In this document: in pieces, positions 9,041-63,850 of the stretch
Layout of the letters: every line of letters begins with the position of its first letter
Position numbering within the stretch: position 1 is the first letter of the stretch
DNA from: Candidatus Acidulidesulfobacter diazotrophicus
GTDB lineage: Bacteria > SZUA-79 > Acidulodesulfobacterales > Acidulodesulfobacteraceae
Assembly (NCBI GenBank): GCA_004195025.1
Contig: SGBB01000001.1
Location: 248,001 to 312,000, forward strand
DNA: 64,000 bases
Direction: 5' to 3'
Notes under the pieces: generated by a model
The model's input: only the letters and a program-made list of their open reading frames with translations
The model's database searches: none
What the model was told of the DNA's origin: nothing
Position numbers and translations under genes: made by a program

Positions 9041-9697
9041 ATGGCAAATAAAATGAAAGGAGATATAAATAAATACAATTGTATAATATTTGACTTAGAC
9101 GGAACGCTTATAGATTCTTTTCAGGCTATTAACGATGCTTTTGATGCCGTATTTTTAAGATTTGACGGAAGAGTACTATCTGATAGCGAATCCAATTCAT
9201 ATGTGGGCGTTCCGCTTGAAGATTTACTAAGTGAGATGTTCGGAGAAGAAAATCAAGCCGAAGCGATAGAAATATTTAGAAATAAATACAAGGAAGTTTG
9301 TTTTGAGAAGACTACATTAATTAAAGGGGCAAAAGAACTTCTTACAGATTTAAAAGATAAAGGCAAGTCATTAAATATTGCCACAAATAAGACAGGCGAC
9401 ATATCTCGCGATTTATTGAAATCTTTAAACATTGACAATTTATTCGATTATGTGTACGGTGTGTTTGACGGTATGAAAGGCAAACCGTCCCCTGAAATGA
9501 TAAACAAAATAATAGAAAATACAGGATTTGAAAAACCCGATGTTATTTTTATCGGAGATTCTCCAATAGACATAATGACCGCAAAAAATGCCGGGGTGAC
9601 TATGCTTAGTGTTGCATCCGGAAATCATACATATGGCGAGTTGAGGTCTTTTAATCCGGATTTTTTATATGAACATATTGCAAATATAACTTCTTAA
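9041..9697 (+). CDS. HAD-superfamily phosphatase (phosphoglycolate phosphatase-like)
   Basis: A 218-residue haloacid-dehalogenase fold hydrolase of the Gph/PGP subfamily. Motif I FDLDGTLIDSF supplies Asp18 and Asp20. A helical C1 cap follows. Motif II is in NIATNKTG, and motif III/IV in GKPSPEMI and FIGDSPIDIMTAKNAG. Substrate specificity in this family is not readable from motifs alone, so 2-phosphoglycolate phosphatase is only the commonest annotation. The stop codon overlaps the left terminal inverted repeat of a MITE-like element. Confidence 0.85.
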   Translation: MANKMKGDINKYNCIIFDLDGTLIDSFQAINDAFDAVFLRFDGRVLSDSESNSYVGVPLEDLLSEMFGEENQAEAIEIFRNKYKEVCFEKTTLIKGAKELLTDLKDKGKSLNIATNKTGDISRDLLKSLNIDNLFDYVYGVFDGMKGKPSPEMINKIIENTGFEKPDVIFIGDSPIDIMTAKNAGVTMLSVASGNHTYGELRSFNPDFLYEHIANITS

Positions 9698-55032: not shown

Positions 55033-56571
55033 TTATTTAACAATTTTTGGTTTAAGTAAAATATAAATTTCCGTTTTTGTTTTTGTATTATTTATTCCGC
55101 TAAAGATATAGCCCAGCACCGGAATATCGTCTAAAATCGGAACGCCGTATTTATTGTTGTTTGCGGAATCGGTCGTAAGTCCGCCCAATAACACTGATGT
55201 ATTGGATTTTACGGCAAATGTATCAATCATTGTTTTTGTATCCACATTGGGAACGTTAAAGCTATTTCCGTTAGAACTGAAAGAAGAATACCCGTTTACA
55301 TTGTTATCCACGACGGCTATCGTCGCATATACTTTATTTCCTTTCACGAGCGGCGTAAAAGAAATAGACAACCCCGTCTGAACCTGAGATATTTGAGGAT
55401 AGGACAAAGTTGAGCTTGAAAGACCTAATGATTCTACCTGCACGCCGGATTCGTAAGGTATTACGCTGCCCGAAGATATGACTCTTGTTTGACCGTTTAA
55501 AACCGAAAGAACCGCTGAATTAACGAGTCGGACATTGCCGTAAGTTTGCAGCGCATTAATAACCGCCTGATTAGAATTATTACCGGTAAAAGATAGATAG
55601 TCGCCTGAGTTATTTGCTCCCGCCTGCGTACCTGAATTTAAAGAAAAATTGATATTAGAAATACCTAAAGCATTGCCTTTCATTACATTTTGAAACAATT
55701 CTTGCATATTAATGCCGAATTGATATTGATTTGATAAAGAAATCTCTAAAATTTTTACCGTCAGGATAATCTTTTTGGTTGACAATTTTTTAAGCTCTTT
55801 AACCAATAAATCAACTTGTTTTATTCTTCTTTTTTTGGCGTGAATAGTTAAAAGACCGTAATTTGGAACTATATTGTAATACGACTTCTTTGAACCCTTA
55901 AAGATTGTTTTTAGGTTAGTTAGAAGAACCTTATAAAAGGAATTAGAAGGGGTAGTCATGGTATCAGACATCATTCCCGCCGGATTCGTAGAAGTTTGGC
56001 TGCCCATCATAGAACCTGACGGAGACATTGCCGCTGCAGCAGAACCCATTGCCGGAGCAGCAGCCTGCGAATTATTAGATACATTTGAAGAAGAAACGGA
56101 GCCTACTGAAAAATTAACTTTATTTGTAAGCGCTGTAATAGAGAATCTGTAAGTTTTATCTATATAAGCATGAACGGTTATTTTATTTAAATATTTATTA
56201 TAATGATAAACATAATTAGATAAAACCATTGAAAGAATTTTATATAAAGGTTTATTATTAAAAATAACGGTCATTTTTCTATTTATATTTATATTTTTGG
56301 AATAACTGAAATTGATTTGGCTATCCAAAGAAAGCATGTAAAAGATAGAACCTAAAGAAAGCCTGCCTTTTAGGGATAATTTTTGTTTTAAAGCTAAAGG
56401 TATTTTCTTTTTAGCAGTTATTTTAGGTTTAGCATAGCTGATTTTAATTTTAGGCAAGTTAAAAGCAAAAGTATTAACCGTTAATCCTAAATCTATTAAA
56501 GTTACTGCTATTAAAGTTACTGCTATTAAAGTTACTGCTATTAAAATTACCGTTTGAATTTTAATCATCAT
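55033..56571 (-). CDS. Outer-membrane secretin (PilQ/PilN/GspD family)
   Basis: A 512-residue secretin that forms the outer-membrane channel. The N-terminal signal peptide carries a triple AVTLI repeat. An STN-like domain lies at about residues 70-135. A low-complexity Ala/Ser/Met linker follows (about 160-210), then an N1-type KH region (LTNLKTIFKG, RIKQVDLLVKELKKL). The C-terminal secretin domain is clear, with VPYESGVQ-like and NTSVLLGGLTTDS motifs and the ending GVPILDDIPVLGYIF ... EIYILLKPKIV. No lipobox is visible, so a pilotin may help insertion; the lipoprotein at the head of the cluster is a candidate. Confidence 0.92.
   Translation of the reverse strand: MMIKIQTVILIAVTLIAVTLIAVTLIDLGLTVNTFAFNLPKIKISYAKPKITAKKKIPLALKQKLSLKGRLSLGSIFYMLSLDSQINFSYSKNININRKMTVIFNNKPLYKILSMVLSNYVYHYNKYLNKITVHAYIDKTYRFSITALTNKVNFSVGSVSSSNVSNNSQAAAPAMGSAAAAMSPSGSMMGSQTSTNPAGMMSDTMTTPSNSFYKVLLTNLKTIFKGSKKSYYNIVPNYGLLTIHAKKRRIKQVDLLVKELKKLSTKKIILTVKILEISLSNQYQFGINMQELFQNVMKGNALGISNINFSLNSGTQAGANNSGDYLSFTGNNSNQAVINALQTYGNVRLVNSAVLSVLNGQTRVISSGSVIPYESGVQVESLGLSSSTLSYPQISQVQTGLSISFTPLVKGNKVYATIAVVDNNVNGYSSFSSNGNSFNVPNVDTKTMIDTFAVKSNTSVLLGGLTTDSANNNKYGVPILDDIPVLGYIFSGINNTKTKTEIYILLKPKIVK
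56495..56550 (-). repeat. 15-bp tandem repeat inside the secretin signal peptide
   Basis: ATTAAAGTTACTGCT (plus strand) is repeated three times plus a partial fourth copy. In the coding strand it yields three AVTLI units in the hydrophobic core of the signal peptide. The unit length keeps the frame. Confidence 0.85.
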
Positions 56572-58219: not shown

Positions 58220-58296
58220 GCGTCCATAGCTCAGATGGATAGAGCAACAGCCTTCTAAGCTGTGGGTCGTGGGTTCGAATCCCGCTGGACGCACCA
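58220..58296 (+). tRNA. tRNA-Arg (TCT)
   Basis: GCGTCCA pairs with TGGACGC. The anticodon arm ACAGC/GCTGT encloses CTTCTAA, giving TCT. The T-arm GGGTTCGAATCCC and the encoded CCA are present. Its 3' part is duplicated downstream, so it is an integration site. Confidence 0.95.
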
Positions 58297-58298
58297 TT
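58248..58298. repeat. Attachment-site copy 1 (51-bp direct repeat, inside tRNA-Arg)
   Basis: From the anticodon stem through CCA plus two bases, this 51-base segment recurs exactly at 59609-59659. The arrangement is that of att sites made by a tyrosine integrase using a tRNA 3' end. Confidence 0.85.
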
Positions 58299-58426
58299 TA
58301 AAACCGCATTAAATAAGCCGCTTCTGGTAACATTCTGCTTGGCAGGCATATCCTTAAAAATGGTAAAATAATGTCAAATTTGGTAAAATATTGATACATA
58401 TTTGTCACATATATAAGGGGGATAAA

Positions 58427-58681
58427 ATGCCAGAAATTAAAAAGAGAAAGAATAGTAAATTCTATCAATATGACGTAATGGTTGACGGAGTGCGTTACCG
58501 GGGCAGCTGCCATACGGACGATAAAAGTTTGGTCGGGAAAATAGCCAGCATTAAAACCTTATCGGATGAAGATATAAATAAACTTACAAAGAATTTAATT
58601 ACTTTTGTTAATGCTAATAAAAATCTTACTCCCGCTGATTCAAGCGAGAGTAAGAGAATAAATAAATCGGATAACTCCTAG
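58427..58681 (+). pseudogene. Tyrosine-integrase N-terminal fragment beside tRNA-Arg
   Basis: The frame encodes an arm-type DNA-binding start (PEIKKRKNSKFYQYDVMVDG, then VRYRGSCHTDDKS), as found at the N-terminus of phage integrases, and ends at TAG after about 84 residues. ATG 58427 follows a GGGGG site; the frame also opens at 58391. Reading through the TAG continues 34 more sensible codons to TAA at 58784-58786. The catalytic domain is missing. It sits 129 bases after the att copy, the normal place for an integrase, so this is probably the remnant of the element that integrated here. Confidence 0.6.
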
Positions 58682-58791
58682 GAAACTAACCAGAATATAG
58701 ACCATGAAAAATTTAGCGAAGGCCTTCAGTTTTTTACAATAGGTTTAGCTATGCACGAGTTTGAAAATTATAAGGCAGGGAGATAAAATAT

Positions 58792-59199
58792 TTATTTGAA
58801 CGGATTGACGATTTCTAATCTTTTTTCTATTTCCTGCCCTGAATGCAAATCTTCGGAAAAAAGTATATTACAGTTACTTTCCAATGCGGAAGCTATTACC
58901 ATGCTGTCCCAGTAAGAATAGCGATATTTTACCCTGATCGCCGAAGCGGAAAAAAATATATCCTTAGAAAAATTAATTATCGAATATCTTTTATAGCAGC
59001 TATCGACAAAATCCATAATATTTAACTCATTAAACCCGAGTTTTTTAAGCATGTTATTGCTGACTTCATTTATTACTTGCGTGCTGATGGTGAAATCATC
59101 AGCTAATAAAACATCTTTTGCAATTTCATGTTTTTTTAAATCTATATCCGAAAAGCCGTAGAGGAATATGTTGGAATCAAGAAAGATATTATCTTTCAT
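58792..59199 (-). CDS. PIN-domain ribonuclease toxin (VapC-like)
   Basis: A 135-residue PIN-domain RNase. The acidic metal site is visible: Asp8 in FLDSNIFLY, the Glu of QVINEVSNN, and the Asp residues of YWDSMVIASAL and LFSEDLHSG. Such toxins cleave tRNA or rRNA and are held in check by the adjacent antitoxin. The start overlaps the antitoxin gene by 11 bases. It lies inside the att-bracketed islet. Confidence 0.9.
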   Translation of the reverse strand: MKDNIFLDSNIFLYGFSDIDLKKHEIAKDVLLADDFTISTQVINEVSNNMLKKLGFNELNIMDFVDSCYKRYSIINFSKDIFFSASAIRVKYRYSYWDSMVIASALESNCNILFSEDLHSGQEIEKRLEIVNPFK

Positions 59200-59395
59200 T
59201 GGCTTCTTCTCTCGATAAAAAAGATACGCCGCTATTAAGATGGACGGGGTTGTTTACGATCCTGAAAATAAAATCTTTATCGCTTCTAAAATCGTTATCC
59301 AGTATTATCACTTTCGCTTTTTTTGCGTTAAGATACTTCTTGGGCAAGTTAATTACACCGTTTTTTATTTCCGTTTCAAATTCCGAATTTCGCAT
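59189..59395 (-). CDS. Antitoxin partner of the PIN toxin
   Basis: A 68-residue protein. The N-terminal half, FETEIKNGVINLPKKYLNAK then KAKVIIL, has the short beta pattern of AbrB/SpoVT-like or related antitoxin DNA-binding domains. The C-terminal part (about 40-68) would wrap the toxin. ATG 59395 follows an AGAGGT site and is preferred over GTG 59404. It precedes and overlaps the toxin gene, the usual antitoxin-first order. Confidence 0.75.
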   Translation of the reverse strand: MRNSEFETEIKNGVINLPKKYLNAKKAKVIILDNDFRSDKDFIFRIVNNPVHLNSGVSFLSREEANER

Positions 59396-59608
59396 CTTTA
59401 ACACCTCTTAATATTGTGGTATTATAAATTTTAGTTTTAATAAATTAACTTAATTAATAAATATATCATTTAATTTATTAATATTATACCGCTTTTTTAG
59501 GATGCGTTCAATTATTGTTTCCGGCAGGCTCTTTGCTACTATATTGCTACCATATTTCAATATTTCATTAAAACACTAATAATATTAATATCTTATAAGT
59601 GCGATTTC

Positions 59609-59659
59609 CAGCCTTCTAAGCTGTGGGTCGTGGGTTCGAATCCCGCTGGACGCACCATT
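59609..59659 (+). repeat. Attachment-site copy 2 (3' part of tRNA-Arg)
   Basis: An exact 51-base copy of the tRNA-Arg 3' half, including CCA. It lacks the 5' half, so it is not a tRNA gene. It closes a 1,361-bp unit. The stretch 59405-59608 before it holds no gene I can support. Confidence 0.85.
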
Positions 59660-59788
59660 CAAAACACAAGCCCTTTAATCCTTTCCTGGCTTTTTACCAT
59701 AAAAATTTATCTTGACTAAAAAGCTAAAATCGTATAAATTTATGTATATTTATACAAATTTTACATACAAAAACCCACACAATTTTTT

Positions 59789-60010
59789 ATGAGAATTTAC
59801 AAACGCGGAAATATCTTCTGGTGCTAATTTCAAGTCGATAAAAAGACTTACAGACAGGTATTCATGTAAAACAAAAGCAAAAGATGTCGCCCATGAAGTA
59901 GCGGTCGCCCTGCACGCCGACGTCGTCAGGAAGAAATTCGACATACCCGCTAAATATAAAGCTAAAAAATTATTTAAAGACGTATGAGAAGAGTATATTA
60001 AAATATATGT
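59789..60010 (+). pseudogene. Decayed second tyrosine integrase, N-terminal part
   Basis: From ATG 59789 the sequence reads MRIYKRGNIFW, then hits TAA, continues FQVDKKTYRQVF, and is broken by a further stop and a frameshift. It resumes in another frame as DVAHEVAVALHADVVRKKFD ... KKLFKDV followed by TGA where Trp is expected, then EEYIKIY. This is a recognisable integrase arm and core-binding N-terminus. The ATG is 130 bases from att copy 2, mirroring the first integrase fragment (129 bases). Confidence 0.65.
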
Positions 60011-60235
60011 GTCAACTATGATGAGTTCAAAGTTATTAAAGATTATCAAAATGATCTTAAACTTCTGGAGATAAAAAATAAAGCTGAAAAATTTCTCGAA
60101 GAATGGCTAGACAAGGAATTTAAATCGCAATGTGGTTTTTTTCATTTTAATTTCAACCCCCTAACTATAAAAATTTACAAGCCTAAATTTAAAACGAGAT
60201 TCATAGCCGTATTGGAAGCATTGAAAAAACCTTAG
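60011..60235 (+). pseudogene. Open-frame remnant without a start codon
   Basis: About 74 codons reading NYDEFKVIKDYQNDLKLLEI, then KAEKFLEEWLDKEF and, near the end, RFIAVLEALKKP, closed by TAG. No start codon is available and no family is recognised. It may continue the decayed integrase region in another frame or be the end of an unrelated gene. Confidence 0.35.
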
Positions 60236-60262: not shown

Positions 60263-60508
60263 ATGAAACACAGGCACATAAATGTAAATATTAATAAAAG
60301 TCTACCACTTGAAGCGATAGACGACATTGTCTCAAGGGGCGATATGCCGGAATGGTTGGAGTTAAGGGACTACGCTTTAAGCCATCCGGAAGCGTTAAAC
60401 GATATAATAAAAATTTGCAAACATTATATAGCAGATCCCTACGAACAGAAATATTATTTCTGGTATAATTTTGCTCTATATTTAATAAATGCCGGAGGAA
60501 CCCAATGA
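60263..60508 (+). CDS. Small protein coupled to a nucleotidyltransferase, unknown
   Basis: An 81-residue protein (NINKSLPLEAIDDIVSRGDM, then PEWLELRDYALSHPEAL and DPYEQKYYFWYNFALYLI). No domain is recognised; it is helix-rich and acidic/aromatic toward the end. Its stop overlaps the ATG of the nucleotidyltransferase gene (ATGA), so the two are translationally coupled. The size and order fit an antitoxin or partner, but that is inference. Confidence 0.6.
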   Translation: MKHRHINVNINKSLPLEAIDDIVSRGDMPEWLELRDYALSHPEALNDIIKICKHYIADPYEQKYYFWYNFALYLINAGGTQ

Positions 60509-61272
60509 ACGACAAGGAAGAATGGGAGAGCGTTGTTTCGAATATAGCGAGGATTAACGACATCCTGCCCGATGCCGTCATAGTAGGAGGAACAGCATCG
60601 GCTTTATATTCCGAACATAGAACGTCTAACGATACCGATTTTGTAGTTAAGGATTTAAAGGAAAGATTCAACGATATCCTTTCGACGCTTGAAGCGGTTT
60701 CTGGATGGAAGACTTCAAGGATAAAACCGCCGGTTTTAATTCTTGGAAATTTAAACGGTATCGAAACGGGTATAAGGCAGCTTATAAGAACCAAACCGTT
60801 AGAAACCACGGAAATGGATTATAAAGGCCAAAAATTAACAGTGCCTACCTCTGCCGAAATTTTAAGGATTAAAGGTTTTTTAATACTTGCCAGGAATGCG
60901 ACGCGCGATTACATTGATTTCGTCGCGCTGGCCAACCATCTGGGCGACGGTAAAACCAATGAGTCCTTAAAAAGCTTTGACGAGCTTTATCCGCAGGAAA
61001 ATAAAGCATCGGCCTTAAGGCAACTGGTGGTACAATTAACGAAACCATTACCGTATGATTTAAAGGAAACCGATTTAACCAAATATAAAAATCTCGACAA
61101 AAAGTGGCAGGATTGGCGTAACGTGGAAGAGTATTCCAAAAAGGTAGCGATTAATATTTTTACGGGATACAGGAATGAATTGGAGCCTAAACCCGAAACT
61201 CCTAAACCCGACGCTTTCTCGGAATGGCTCAATGAAAAAGAGCAGAATAAAAAGAAAGGGCCGAAGCTGTAA
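60505..61272 (+). CDS. Nucleotidyltransferase-fold protein (AbiEii/MenT-like)
   Basis: A 255-residue protein with a polymerase-beta-type nucleotidyltransferase core. The VIVGGTASALYSEHRTSNDT segment holds the Gly-Gly pair (28-29) and the first acidic residue of the metal site; the TDF that follows supplies the second. The pattern matches AbiEii toxins of type IV systems. The C-terminal half is helical and ends in a charged Pro/Lys tail. A GGAGG site precedes the ATG. The DNA is visibly less AT-rich than the surroundings, suggesting transfer. Acting as a toxin or abortive-infection factor is plausible but unproven. Confidence 0.7.
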   Translation: MNDKEEWESVVSNIARINDILPDAVIVGGTASALYSEHRTSNDTDFVVKDLKERFNDILSTLEAVSGWKTSRIKPPVLILGNLNGIETGIRQLIRTKPLETTEMDYKGQKLTVPTSAEILRIKGFLILARNATRDYIDFVALANHLGDGKTNESLKSFDELYPQENKASALRQLVVQLTKPLPYDLKETDLTKYKNLDKKWQDWRNVEEYSKKVAINIFTGYRNELEPKPETPKPDAFSEWLNEKEQNKKKGPKL

Positions 61273-61903: not shown

Positions 61904-63850
61904 TTAAATATTAAGAAGTTTTTTAATCTGTTCAAAATCGCTATTCTTTGCTTCCGTAAATGCAGAATATCCTTTGTCAATAGATTGGAGTATGTTTTTG
62001 TCTTTAATATTTAGAAGAATATCTTTCATTTTTAATTTTAAATCCTCATCAATGCTGTTGCCGGCGCAAATTGGGAATTGCGGTATGGGATCCGAGTAAG
62101 CTATAATTTTTAAAGAATTCTTGAAATCTTCCGCAGCGGAATCCATCAATGCCCCGGCGTCAAATTCTCCTGATATGACGGCGTTTGCCACATTATCATG
62201 AGAACCGAGGTAATCATAAGCGGCAAGAGATATAAGTTCAATCCCTGCTGCTTTCAGCATTGCTTTTGGAATAAGCGAAGAGCCCGTTGACATTTTAGAA
62301 CCGAATGCTATTTTTTTTGATTTTAAATCTTGAATAGAACTTATTTTAGAATTTATCGGCGCAACAAAAACGCTTTTATAAGTGGGAGAGCCATTTTTGA
62401 TTGCATAGACAAGAGGTTCAATTTTATATTTTTTACTTGCTTCTAAATAGGTAGAGGGCGTCATGTAAGCAAAAGACACTTTATTAGTTCCTATCTCTTC
62501 AATTGAATCTTCATATGTAACTGCAACCAAATTACTGTAATGTAAATTTAAAGATTTATTTAAATAATTTATTAGCGGTTCAAATTTCTTTTTCATAATT
62601 ATTGCGCTTTCTAATGGAACTATTCCAAAAAGGTCTAATTTTAAGGAGCATAGTTCAATTTTTAATGAATTAGAAGACTTAGCTAACGATGAACTTATTA
62701 TTTTTGATTTTTTCGCCGCTTCGGTTGTATTGGCAGATACCTTTTGAACGACGGCAAGATTTTTTTCTACCTCGGCGACGGCAATTTCTAACTGTTCAGC
62801 TGAAGAATATATTATGTCTATGCTATTTTTTTCTTCGCTCGCAGCTTTCATAATATTGCTAAATAATTCCTCCGCCTGAACAGATTCTGAACTTATTTTT
62901 TTAACATTTTCTATTGCGTCTTTAATAGCCTGAACAGTTTTTGAAGTTTCCTGAAGCAGGCTTTCTATTATTTTTCTTGTATCGGAAGTTGATTTGCTTG
63001 TTCTTTCAGCCAATTTTTTAACTTCATCCGCTACAACGGCAAAACCTCTGCCCTGCTCTCCAGCCCGCGCAGCTTCTATAGCTGCATTTAACGCTAAGAG
63101 ATTGGTCTGGTCCGCTATATCGCTTATTAATGAAATAACGTCGCCTATTTCTTTAGATCTTTTATCAAGTTCGGACATAGTAGTATTTAAATTTTCTATG
63201 GAATTAGATACTGTTTTTATATCGTCTATAATATTTTCTATCATTAAATTTCCTTGAGTAGCTCTTTCTAGAGAAGTCTTAGAAGATTTCTGAGAATCTT
63301 TGGCGCTTTTTGTCATTTCTTTATGGGACATACTAATTTCGTCAATTGCGCTGGAAATTGAAGCCACCTGTACCGACAACGATTCATTTTCCCTATATAT
63401 TTTTTCCATAGAACCGCTTTCAATATTGGCATCAACGGCAACAATATTTGTTGAATCCAACGCTTTTTGAAATGTATCGTTTAAGTAATCAAATAAATCG
63501 TTAATTTTACTGTCTATATTGTATAAATCTATTGATGAAGGGAGACGTTTTCTCAGGTCTTTGTCAATAGTCAAAAAATCTGTCAAAAAGTTATTAATTT
63601 TGTTTGCCTTTGCTTTAACTATGACGTTATTAATAAAAATGCCTGCATAGTAAATAATAGCAACAATAATAACGGCAAATGATAATATATAATTTTTCTG
63701 GATAAACGAAAAAATAAGAATAAATAAAGCTATAATTGCGAATATAATTATTAAAGCCGTATTTATAATATTGATATTTAAAATATTATTTCTATTGATG
63801 TTACCATTTTTAGTTATATTCCTGTTTTTCATATTTCTCACCGCCTTCAT
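61904..63850 (-). CDS. Chemoreceptor (MCP) fused to a C-terminal PhnD-like binding domain
   Basis: A 648-residue protein. Two adjacent membrane helices (about 29-50 and 54-76) leave almost no periplasmic part, so both ends should face the cytoplasm. The MCP signalling domain follows, with the hairpin tip [20 protein letters not shown] and [20 protein letters not shown]. From about residue 395 comes a domain like PhnD phosphonate/phosphite binding proteins ([50 protein letters not shown]). Normally PhnD is exported and sensor domains precede the MCP part. The predicted cytoplasmic placement of the binding domain is the oddity. ATG 63832 with a nearby GGTGA is an alternative start. Confidence 0.88.

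Follow-up and report, generated by a model that had tools for sequence, protein, structure and literature searches.

The closest described systems are integrative elements that use tRNA genes as attachment sites. Mapping of tRNA-borne islands with Islander gave a mean of 3 and a maximum of 19 islands per genome, the most frequent class having its crossover centred on the anticodon (subsite A); tandem arrays are also known (PMC4383910). The anticodon-centred subsite is known for tyrosine integrases (PMC4383910, PMC8371274). In Thermococcales, the suicidal integrases of pT26-2-like elements use 14 tRNA genes and have switched targets within a tRNA class, at least as outlined in a review (Badel et al., 2020, reviewed in PMC8371274). 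In a survey of satellites and prophages of Enterobacteriaceae, integrase clades were unified by one attB (PMC10111431). Tycheposons of Prochlorococcus, in the outline of their description, span 4–200 kb and occupy 7 tRNA genes (PMC10872708). For the element family described below, and for additive islands, the literature provided analogies only.

The locus considered here lies in a window of 64,000 nt, the whole stretch of DNA analyzed, from Candidatus Acidulidesulfobacter diazotrophicus (contig SGBB01000001.1). We take the host lineage to be uncultured and to live in acid mines, the habitat being assumed from how isolates of related genomes are named and from general background; Candidatus Acidulodesulfobacterales (PMC6776010) is a plausible placement. 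From sequence comparisons, an islet of the window is very probably a recent, integrase-defective element, stacked on an older one and belonging to a lineage-specific family of small elements anchored at tRNAs. Taken alone, the islet is a degenerate element of an ordinary kind; the family that it exposed is a dense natural data set on target change in tyrosine integrases.

The islet at tRNA-Arg(UCU)

The intact tRNA-Arg(UCU) gene, predicted with ARAGORN, is located at 58220..58296 on the forward strand and would represent both the target gene and the regenerated end of the element. Its 3′ half, reaching from the anticodon stem-loop through CCA with a further TT (58248..58298, forward strand), recurs as a displaced copy at 59609..59659 in the same orientation. 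The complete direct repeat (58248–58304 and 59609–59665) has a single mismatch in its 57 nt; its initial 51 nt are identical, the spacing is 1361 bp, and the repeat is far beyond chance. Repeat comparison thus agrees with the initial annotation, which had proposed a 1,361-bp islet flanked by perfect 51-bp repeats of the tRNA 3′ half. As in most detached halves of the family, the repeat begins at the anticodon stem-loop, and with its 1.36 kb the islet is the smallest copy of the family found.

Both inner borders resemble those of other elements. The left end (LE) together with the integrase leader, recognized by the family motif and by alignment, occupies 58300..58440 (forward strand), and its 19-bp motif at 58300–58318, directly after the CCA of the tRNA, has one mismatch to AAAACCGCAGTAAATAAGC. 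The first 143 bp past the tRNA recur at 82% identity after tRNA-Met and tRNA-Lys in the same genome. The right end (RE; 59535..59608, forward strand) contains the repeats GCTACTATATTGCTACC and AATAATATTAATATCTTATAA, and its motif (59578–59598) stands just 5′ of the displaced tRNA half; among the places listed, the RE stretch has 15 other matches, mostly at element ends. The identity to other elements is 69–88% for LE and 74–85% for RE.

The islet carries a remnant of an integrase gene (58427..58681, forward strand, profile match), in which an in-frame fusion joins the N-terminal 41 amino acids with the beginning of the catalytic domain. The remnant belongs to the family integrases by profile (E=4e-10), matches the profile built from a full-length relative at positions 2–41 and 175–199, and was aligned residue by residue to the integrase at C25 of the same genome. 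We therefore read it as an in-frame relic of an internal deletion. An N-terminal integrase fragment 129 bases inside the islet had been noted before; the position of the ORF start (58427, 129 bp inside) is correct, while the fragment is not solely N-terminal, since residues 1–41 are joined to a piece of the catalytic domain.

The tail of the same ORF is encoded by a copy of a dispersed palindromic repeat (58616..58685, no strand assigned), found in genome searches and consisting of a hairpin and AATAAATAAATCGGATA; for this reason the last 20 residues were rejected as part of the integrase. On the reverse strand, the repeat is a terminator-like hairpin downstream of the antitoxin/PIN pair described below. 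This genome contains dozens of copies, with about 60 pattern matches in the genome stretches examined (including L028, L032, L033, L035, L036, and L040), the copy numbers resting on the searches and on these stretches. Some copies form outward-facing, MITE-like pairs about 280–320 bp apart, and others form short clusters.

At tRNA-Arg(UCU), the islet is missing from all same-genus genomes examined. The chemoreceptor gene, which in the window has its 3′ end at 61904, lies within about 450 bp past the tRNA in G001 and G004, with only a short left-end scar between them. G002 carries another element at this tRNA, and G003 other DNA. In G006, the closest genome at the upstream flank, there is no left end at this tRNA, and the contig stops about 1 kb further on. 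A duplication shared by relatives with no sign of insertion polymorphism, named in the initial annotation as evidence against an insertion, was looked for and not found. Elsewhere in the window, 15-bp tandem repeats at 56478–56550, at the beginning of a secretin-like ORF of 512 aa, encode a repeated hydrophobic stretch (VTLIAVTLIAVTLI).

Immediately to the right of the islet, alignment to the tRNA-Arg(UCU) element of G020 identified the left end and the degraded integrase of an older, stacked element (59660..60130, forward strand), which starts with MRIYKRGNIFWC and has a stop-ridden integrase gene from about 59791. An 81-aa ORF and an AbiEii-like nucleotidyltransferase (60263..61272, forward strand; PF08843, E=4e-6) are its likely cargo. 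They are kept at the same place in G002 with 77% identity, compared to 81% for the neighboring gene; being similarly diverged, the cargo seems to fit an insertion of greater age that has been inherited vertically. No right-hand att could be located for the older element. A composite in which the tRNA runs directly into the sequence beyond the second att copy aligns with the intact G020 element through the tRNA and LE into the integrase. This suggests that the second att copy was the tRNA end before the islet inserted, and by this alignment the G020 arrangement is the equivalent of the empty site.

The T-stem of tRNA-Arg(UCU) is GCAGG/CCTGC in same-genus relatives versus GTGGG/CCCGC in both window copies. 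In G001–G006, G008, G010, and the window, three variants occur, namely these two and GGGCG/CGCCC. The variation possibly comes from elements bringing their own 3′ half; we did not accept the difference as proof of such replacement, as the 5′ half differs too.

The element family and its integrases

An alignment of tRNA junctions yielded the LE motif AAAACCGCAGTAAATAAGC, located 3 nt past the CCA. Searching with up to three mismatches and with the CCA included in the pattern, we found 19 sites in this genome and the motif in all 30 genomes examined from the phylum, all of which belong to one family; the reversed pattern had no matches in the same 30 genomes. An exact scan of 84,980 GTDB species returned 73 stretches, all from uncultured MAGs and apparently all from this lineage. 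As IMG/VR contained no exact match to LE, a viral origin of the family ends is unsupported. Of 75 exact sites, 74 adjoin the 3′ end of a tRNA, either an intact gene (59) or a detached half (15), the one other site being neither; 16 tRNA types are represented.

Shortly 5′ of many detached halves there is an RE motif similar to AATAATATTAATAAGTTATAA. Most detached halves (41 of 47) start within −11 to +4 of the start of the anticodon loop, and the paired repeats are about 1.4–8 kb apart. The attP layout of the family is hence an RE similar to AATAATATTAATAAGTTATAA, the tRNA 3′ half from the anticodon loop, and LE (AAAACCGCAGTAAATAAGC).

Some displaced tRNA halves form a second class that differs in its left context, e.g., AGTCGGTTT or AAAGGATATTTTA (L104 8031, L089 8086, L031 4638, L106, L109, L116, L155, L168, and L256). 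In some of these, the integrase points inward from the distal att, a second architecture sharing the same left end. On one contig, L112 has two near-identical copies of RE, at 9226 (reverse) and 11454 (forward), some 2.2 kb from each other and with oppositely oriented tRNA-Arg(CCU) halves.

A search with the G020 integrase found the family in 29 of the 30 genomes. Of the 84 full-length integrases collected, 74 start ∼115–285 bp (one 513 bp) past the 3′ end of a tRNA; the targets of these 74 belong to 22 tRNA species. A family integrase was present within 2.5 kb of 29 of 68 motif-bearing tRNAs versus 3 of 36 other tRNAs (Fisher p=0.0003). Uninterrupted copies occur at C25 and C16 of the window's own genome. 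The full-length related integrases that the initial annotation had suggested seeking elsewhere are thus present both in the same genome and in the phylum.

On a maximum-likelihood tree of the 74 integrases, the target has changed at least 44 times, 21 being the minimum possible. Shuffling of the targets gave 57.9 changes on average, and none of 200 shuffles was as low as 44. In a smaller tree of 19 integrases there was no clustering by target. Sister integrases are found at different tRNAs, such as Asp and Arg(UCU), Lys and Thr, or Pro and Gly, and Leu tRNAs, with their long variable arm, are placed in clades with Ala or His targets. By the tree of 74, close copies share targets, yielding clustering at the tips, yet switching is frequent. 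The family thereby offers related bacterial integrases with conserved left ends at different tRNA genes, so that the diversification of integrase specificity becomes directly testable.

It is conceivable, although we consider it rather unlikely, that it is chiefly the carried tRNA half, and not the protein, that determines the insertion target. A single lineage with near-constant arm sites would then accept any matching anticodon-loop site, and elements, as well as their integrase-less derivatives, would be re-addressed by swapping the half. If true, such target choice would be useful for programmable insertion.

The presumed antitoxin and PIN genes

The cargo of the islet is a pair of overlapping genes on the reverse strand, transcribed inwards from the RE side. 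The downstream gene (58792..59199) encodes a PIN-domain protein of 135 aa (PF01850, E=6e-12), a candidate toxin in which the acidic residues D8, E45, D98, and D117 are all present. The closest solved chain by sequence is PcrIIC1 (8wmm, E=6.5e-14), which we take to be a Cas9-associated protein and not a characterized toxin. The PIN protein is also ∼41% identical to plasmid PIN proteins annotated beside DUF2281 or a small hypothetical protein. Upstream, the presumed antitoxin gene (59189..59395; 68–71 aa) overlaps it by 11 nt (59189–59199), in accordance with the overlapping pair that had been noted initially. The antitoxin had no match above the cut-off to curated families, and hence no named family; its AlphaFold model, built from a two-sequence alignment, had pLDDT 54, too poor for a fold search. 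The two genes are presumed to form an active toxin–antitoxin (TA) pair.

Homologs of the pair are scattered among relatives. In G012, which belongs to another genus, the pair adjoins the same tRNA and is 88% identical at the nucleotide level, while the adjoining chemoreceptor gene is only 68.5% identical to that of the window. The higher identity of the pair compared to its neighbor points to horizontal spread. Att halves of tRNA-Gln (G013 and another G012 locus), tRNA-Val (G002), and tRNA-Arg(ACG) (G020) also have homologs next to them, and further ones occur in G005 and G011. That other genomes have such pairs next to the att sites of four tRNA species suggests that the pair travels with the element family. 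In addition, the relative positions of LE, the pair, and RE differ between genomes, so that the pair may also have been shifted by ordinary recombination. TA cargo has apparently moved between tRNA sites and between genera in this uncultured acid-mine lineage.

Other likely TA modules were seen on or near sister elements (L085 7744–8402, L024 3310–4000, L095 2557–2966, and L087 2274–2808); by eye, these are nucleotidyltransferase/HEPN-like, HicAB-like, and BrnT-like, and they suggest that TA pairs are a frequent cargo.

Origin of the islet and comparison with known systems

A full member of the family would be a circle whose attP consists of RE, the tRNA 3′ half from the anticodon loop, and LE, usually with the integrase gene beginning about 120–250 bp further in. 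The tyrosine integrase would recombine attP with the anticodon-loop region of a matching tRNA gene, strand exchange presumably taking place at the anticodon loop. The carried half would rebuild the gene, the host half would be displaced to the far end, and several elements could stack at one tRNA. At tRNA-Arg(UCU), we infer that the older element inserted first and decayed, and that the islet then entered at the rebuilt tRNA end. Its integrase would have been lost by an in-frame internal deletion, either before or after insertion; what remained would be both ends together with the perfect att pair and the antitoxin/PIN operon. That the insertion is recent is suggested by the identity of the repeats and by comparison with other species.

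Two alternatives would deny an insertion altogether. The LE motif could be a conserved 3′ trailer of tRNAs in this lineage, with the duplication a fortuitous copy of a tRNA segment. Indeed, the motif stands exactly after the CCA, is common at intact tRNAs, and at 39 of the 68 motif-bearing tRNAs has no integrase nearby. However, it also follows the 15 detached halves, is absent at the 36 other sampled tRNAs, varies between close relatives (as in G006, where this tRNA lacks LE), and tends to occur with family integrases. We therefore rejected the trailer and consider this explanation highly improbable. An assembly artefact at the 51-bp repeat could be suspected, as the assembly is a draft of 47 contigs and several sister elements stop where a contig does, at repeats that interrupted the assembly. 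Still, a contig of 323 kb encloses the islet, whose inner ends independently match the RE and LE of the family, and the TA pair adjoins the same tRNA in a separate MAG, G012; hence an artefact is the least probable of all the explanations considered.

Other alternatives concern the present state of the islet and its persistence. It might be a still-mobile, MITE-like non-autonomous element, composed of recombination ends and cargo and moved by the abundant sister integrases, among them the uninterrupted ones in its own genome. Its intact borders would suit this, as would an integrase at tRNA-Met (L182) whose N-terminal 41 residues are likewise joined to a later part, and several elements in which only the integrase N-terminus is left beside LE. 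On the other hand, we found no near-identical integrase-less copies at several sites of one genome, integrase pieces near LE are equally expected from simple decay, and no integrase of this genome is known to accept the tRNA-Arg(UCU) core. Thus, a still-mobile islet seems doubtful. Somewhat less probable still is addiction, that is, persistence of the islet chiefly because a cell losing the antitoxin would die. The intact, overlapping operon with all four acidic residues and the commonness of similar pairs on plasmids would be consistent with it. Against it, and against the retention by a TA module proposed in the initial annotation, the PIN gene is damaged in relatives, with a stop in the G012 copy at the same tRNA, a frameshift in G005, a broken start region in G011, an acid-to-Y change in G013, and truncation to its start in G002, G020, and the second G012 copy, mostly with much or all of the antitoxin still present. 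Moreover, loss by excision is improbable for an islet that has no integrase, so its presence can be explained without addiction.

The deleted-down integrative element proposed in the initial annotation is well supported by the family ends on both sides, the internally deleted integrase, the full-length related integrases of the same genome and of the phylum, the relatives without the islet, and the empty-site equivalent in G020. The other reading of the initial annotation, a minimal element mobilized in trans, is possible, as both ends are still present with a perfect att pair and relatives have integrase genes; an integrase acting in trans might then excise or move the islet.

Like the islands mapped by Islander, the islet has an intact tRNA and a displaced 3′ fragment in the same orientation, with an anticodon-centred site. 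Unlike them, it lacks a functional integrase: in the Islander test for an integrase gene within the interval, it offers only the remnant, whereas sister elements contain the gene. With 19 LE sites in this genome, the density of islands is high, but these sites include scars and are thus not strictly comparable with the Islander counts. The antitoxin/PIN operon is similar to VapBC-like modules in having a small ORF upstream of an overlapping PIN gene with four acidic residues, and to the plasmid PIN/DUF2281 pairs in the sequence of its PIN protein; the difference from VapBC-like modules is that the antitoxin does not match a curated DNA-binding family above the cut-off. With tycheposons, as these are described, the family shares tRNA-anchored cargo elements with a tyrosine recombinase, and with additive flexible genomic islands, repeated tRNA tails. 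By the same description, the 1.36-kb islet falls below the tycheposon size range, and its recombinase at the tRNA border is a remnant only; the paired repeats of the family are about 1.4–8 kb apart, against 4–200 kb for tycheposons. As in Thermococcales, one integrase clade has many tRNA targets. The integrase gene of the bacterial family is, however, not split by its own att site, and its target range, compared with the switching within a tRNA class outlined in the review, apparently takes in class II Leu tRNAs in the same clades as other tRNAs. Finally, while the clades of the Enterobacteriaceae survey are each tied to one attB, related integrases of the acid-mine family are found at many tRNAs.
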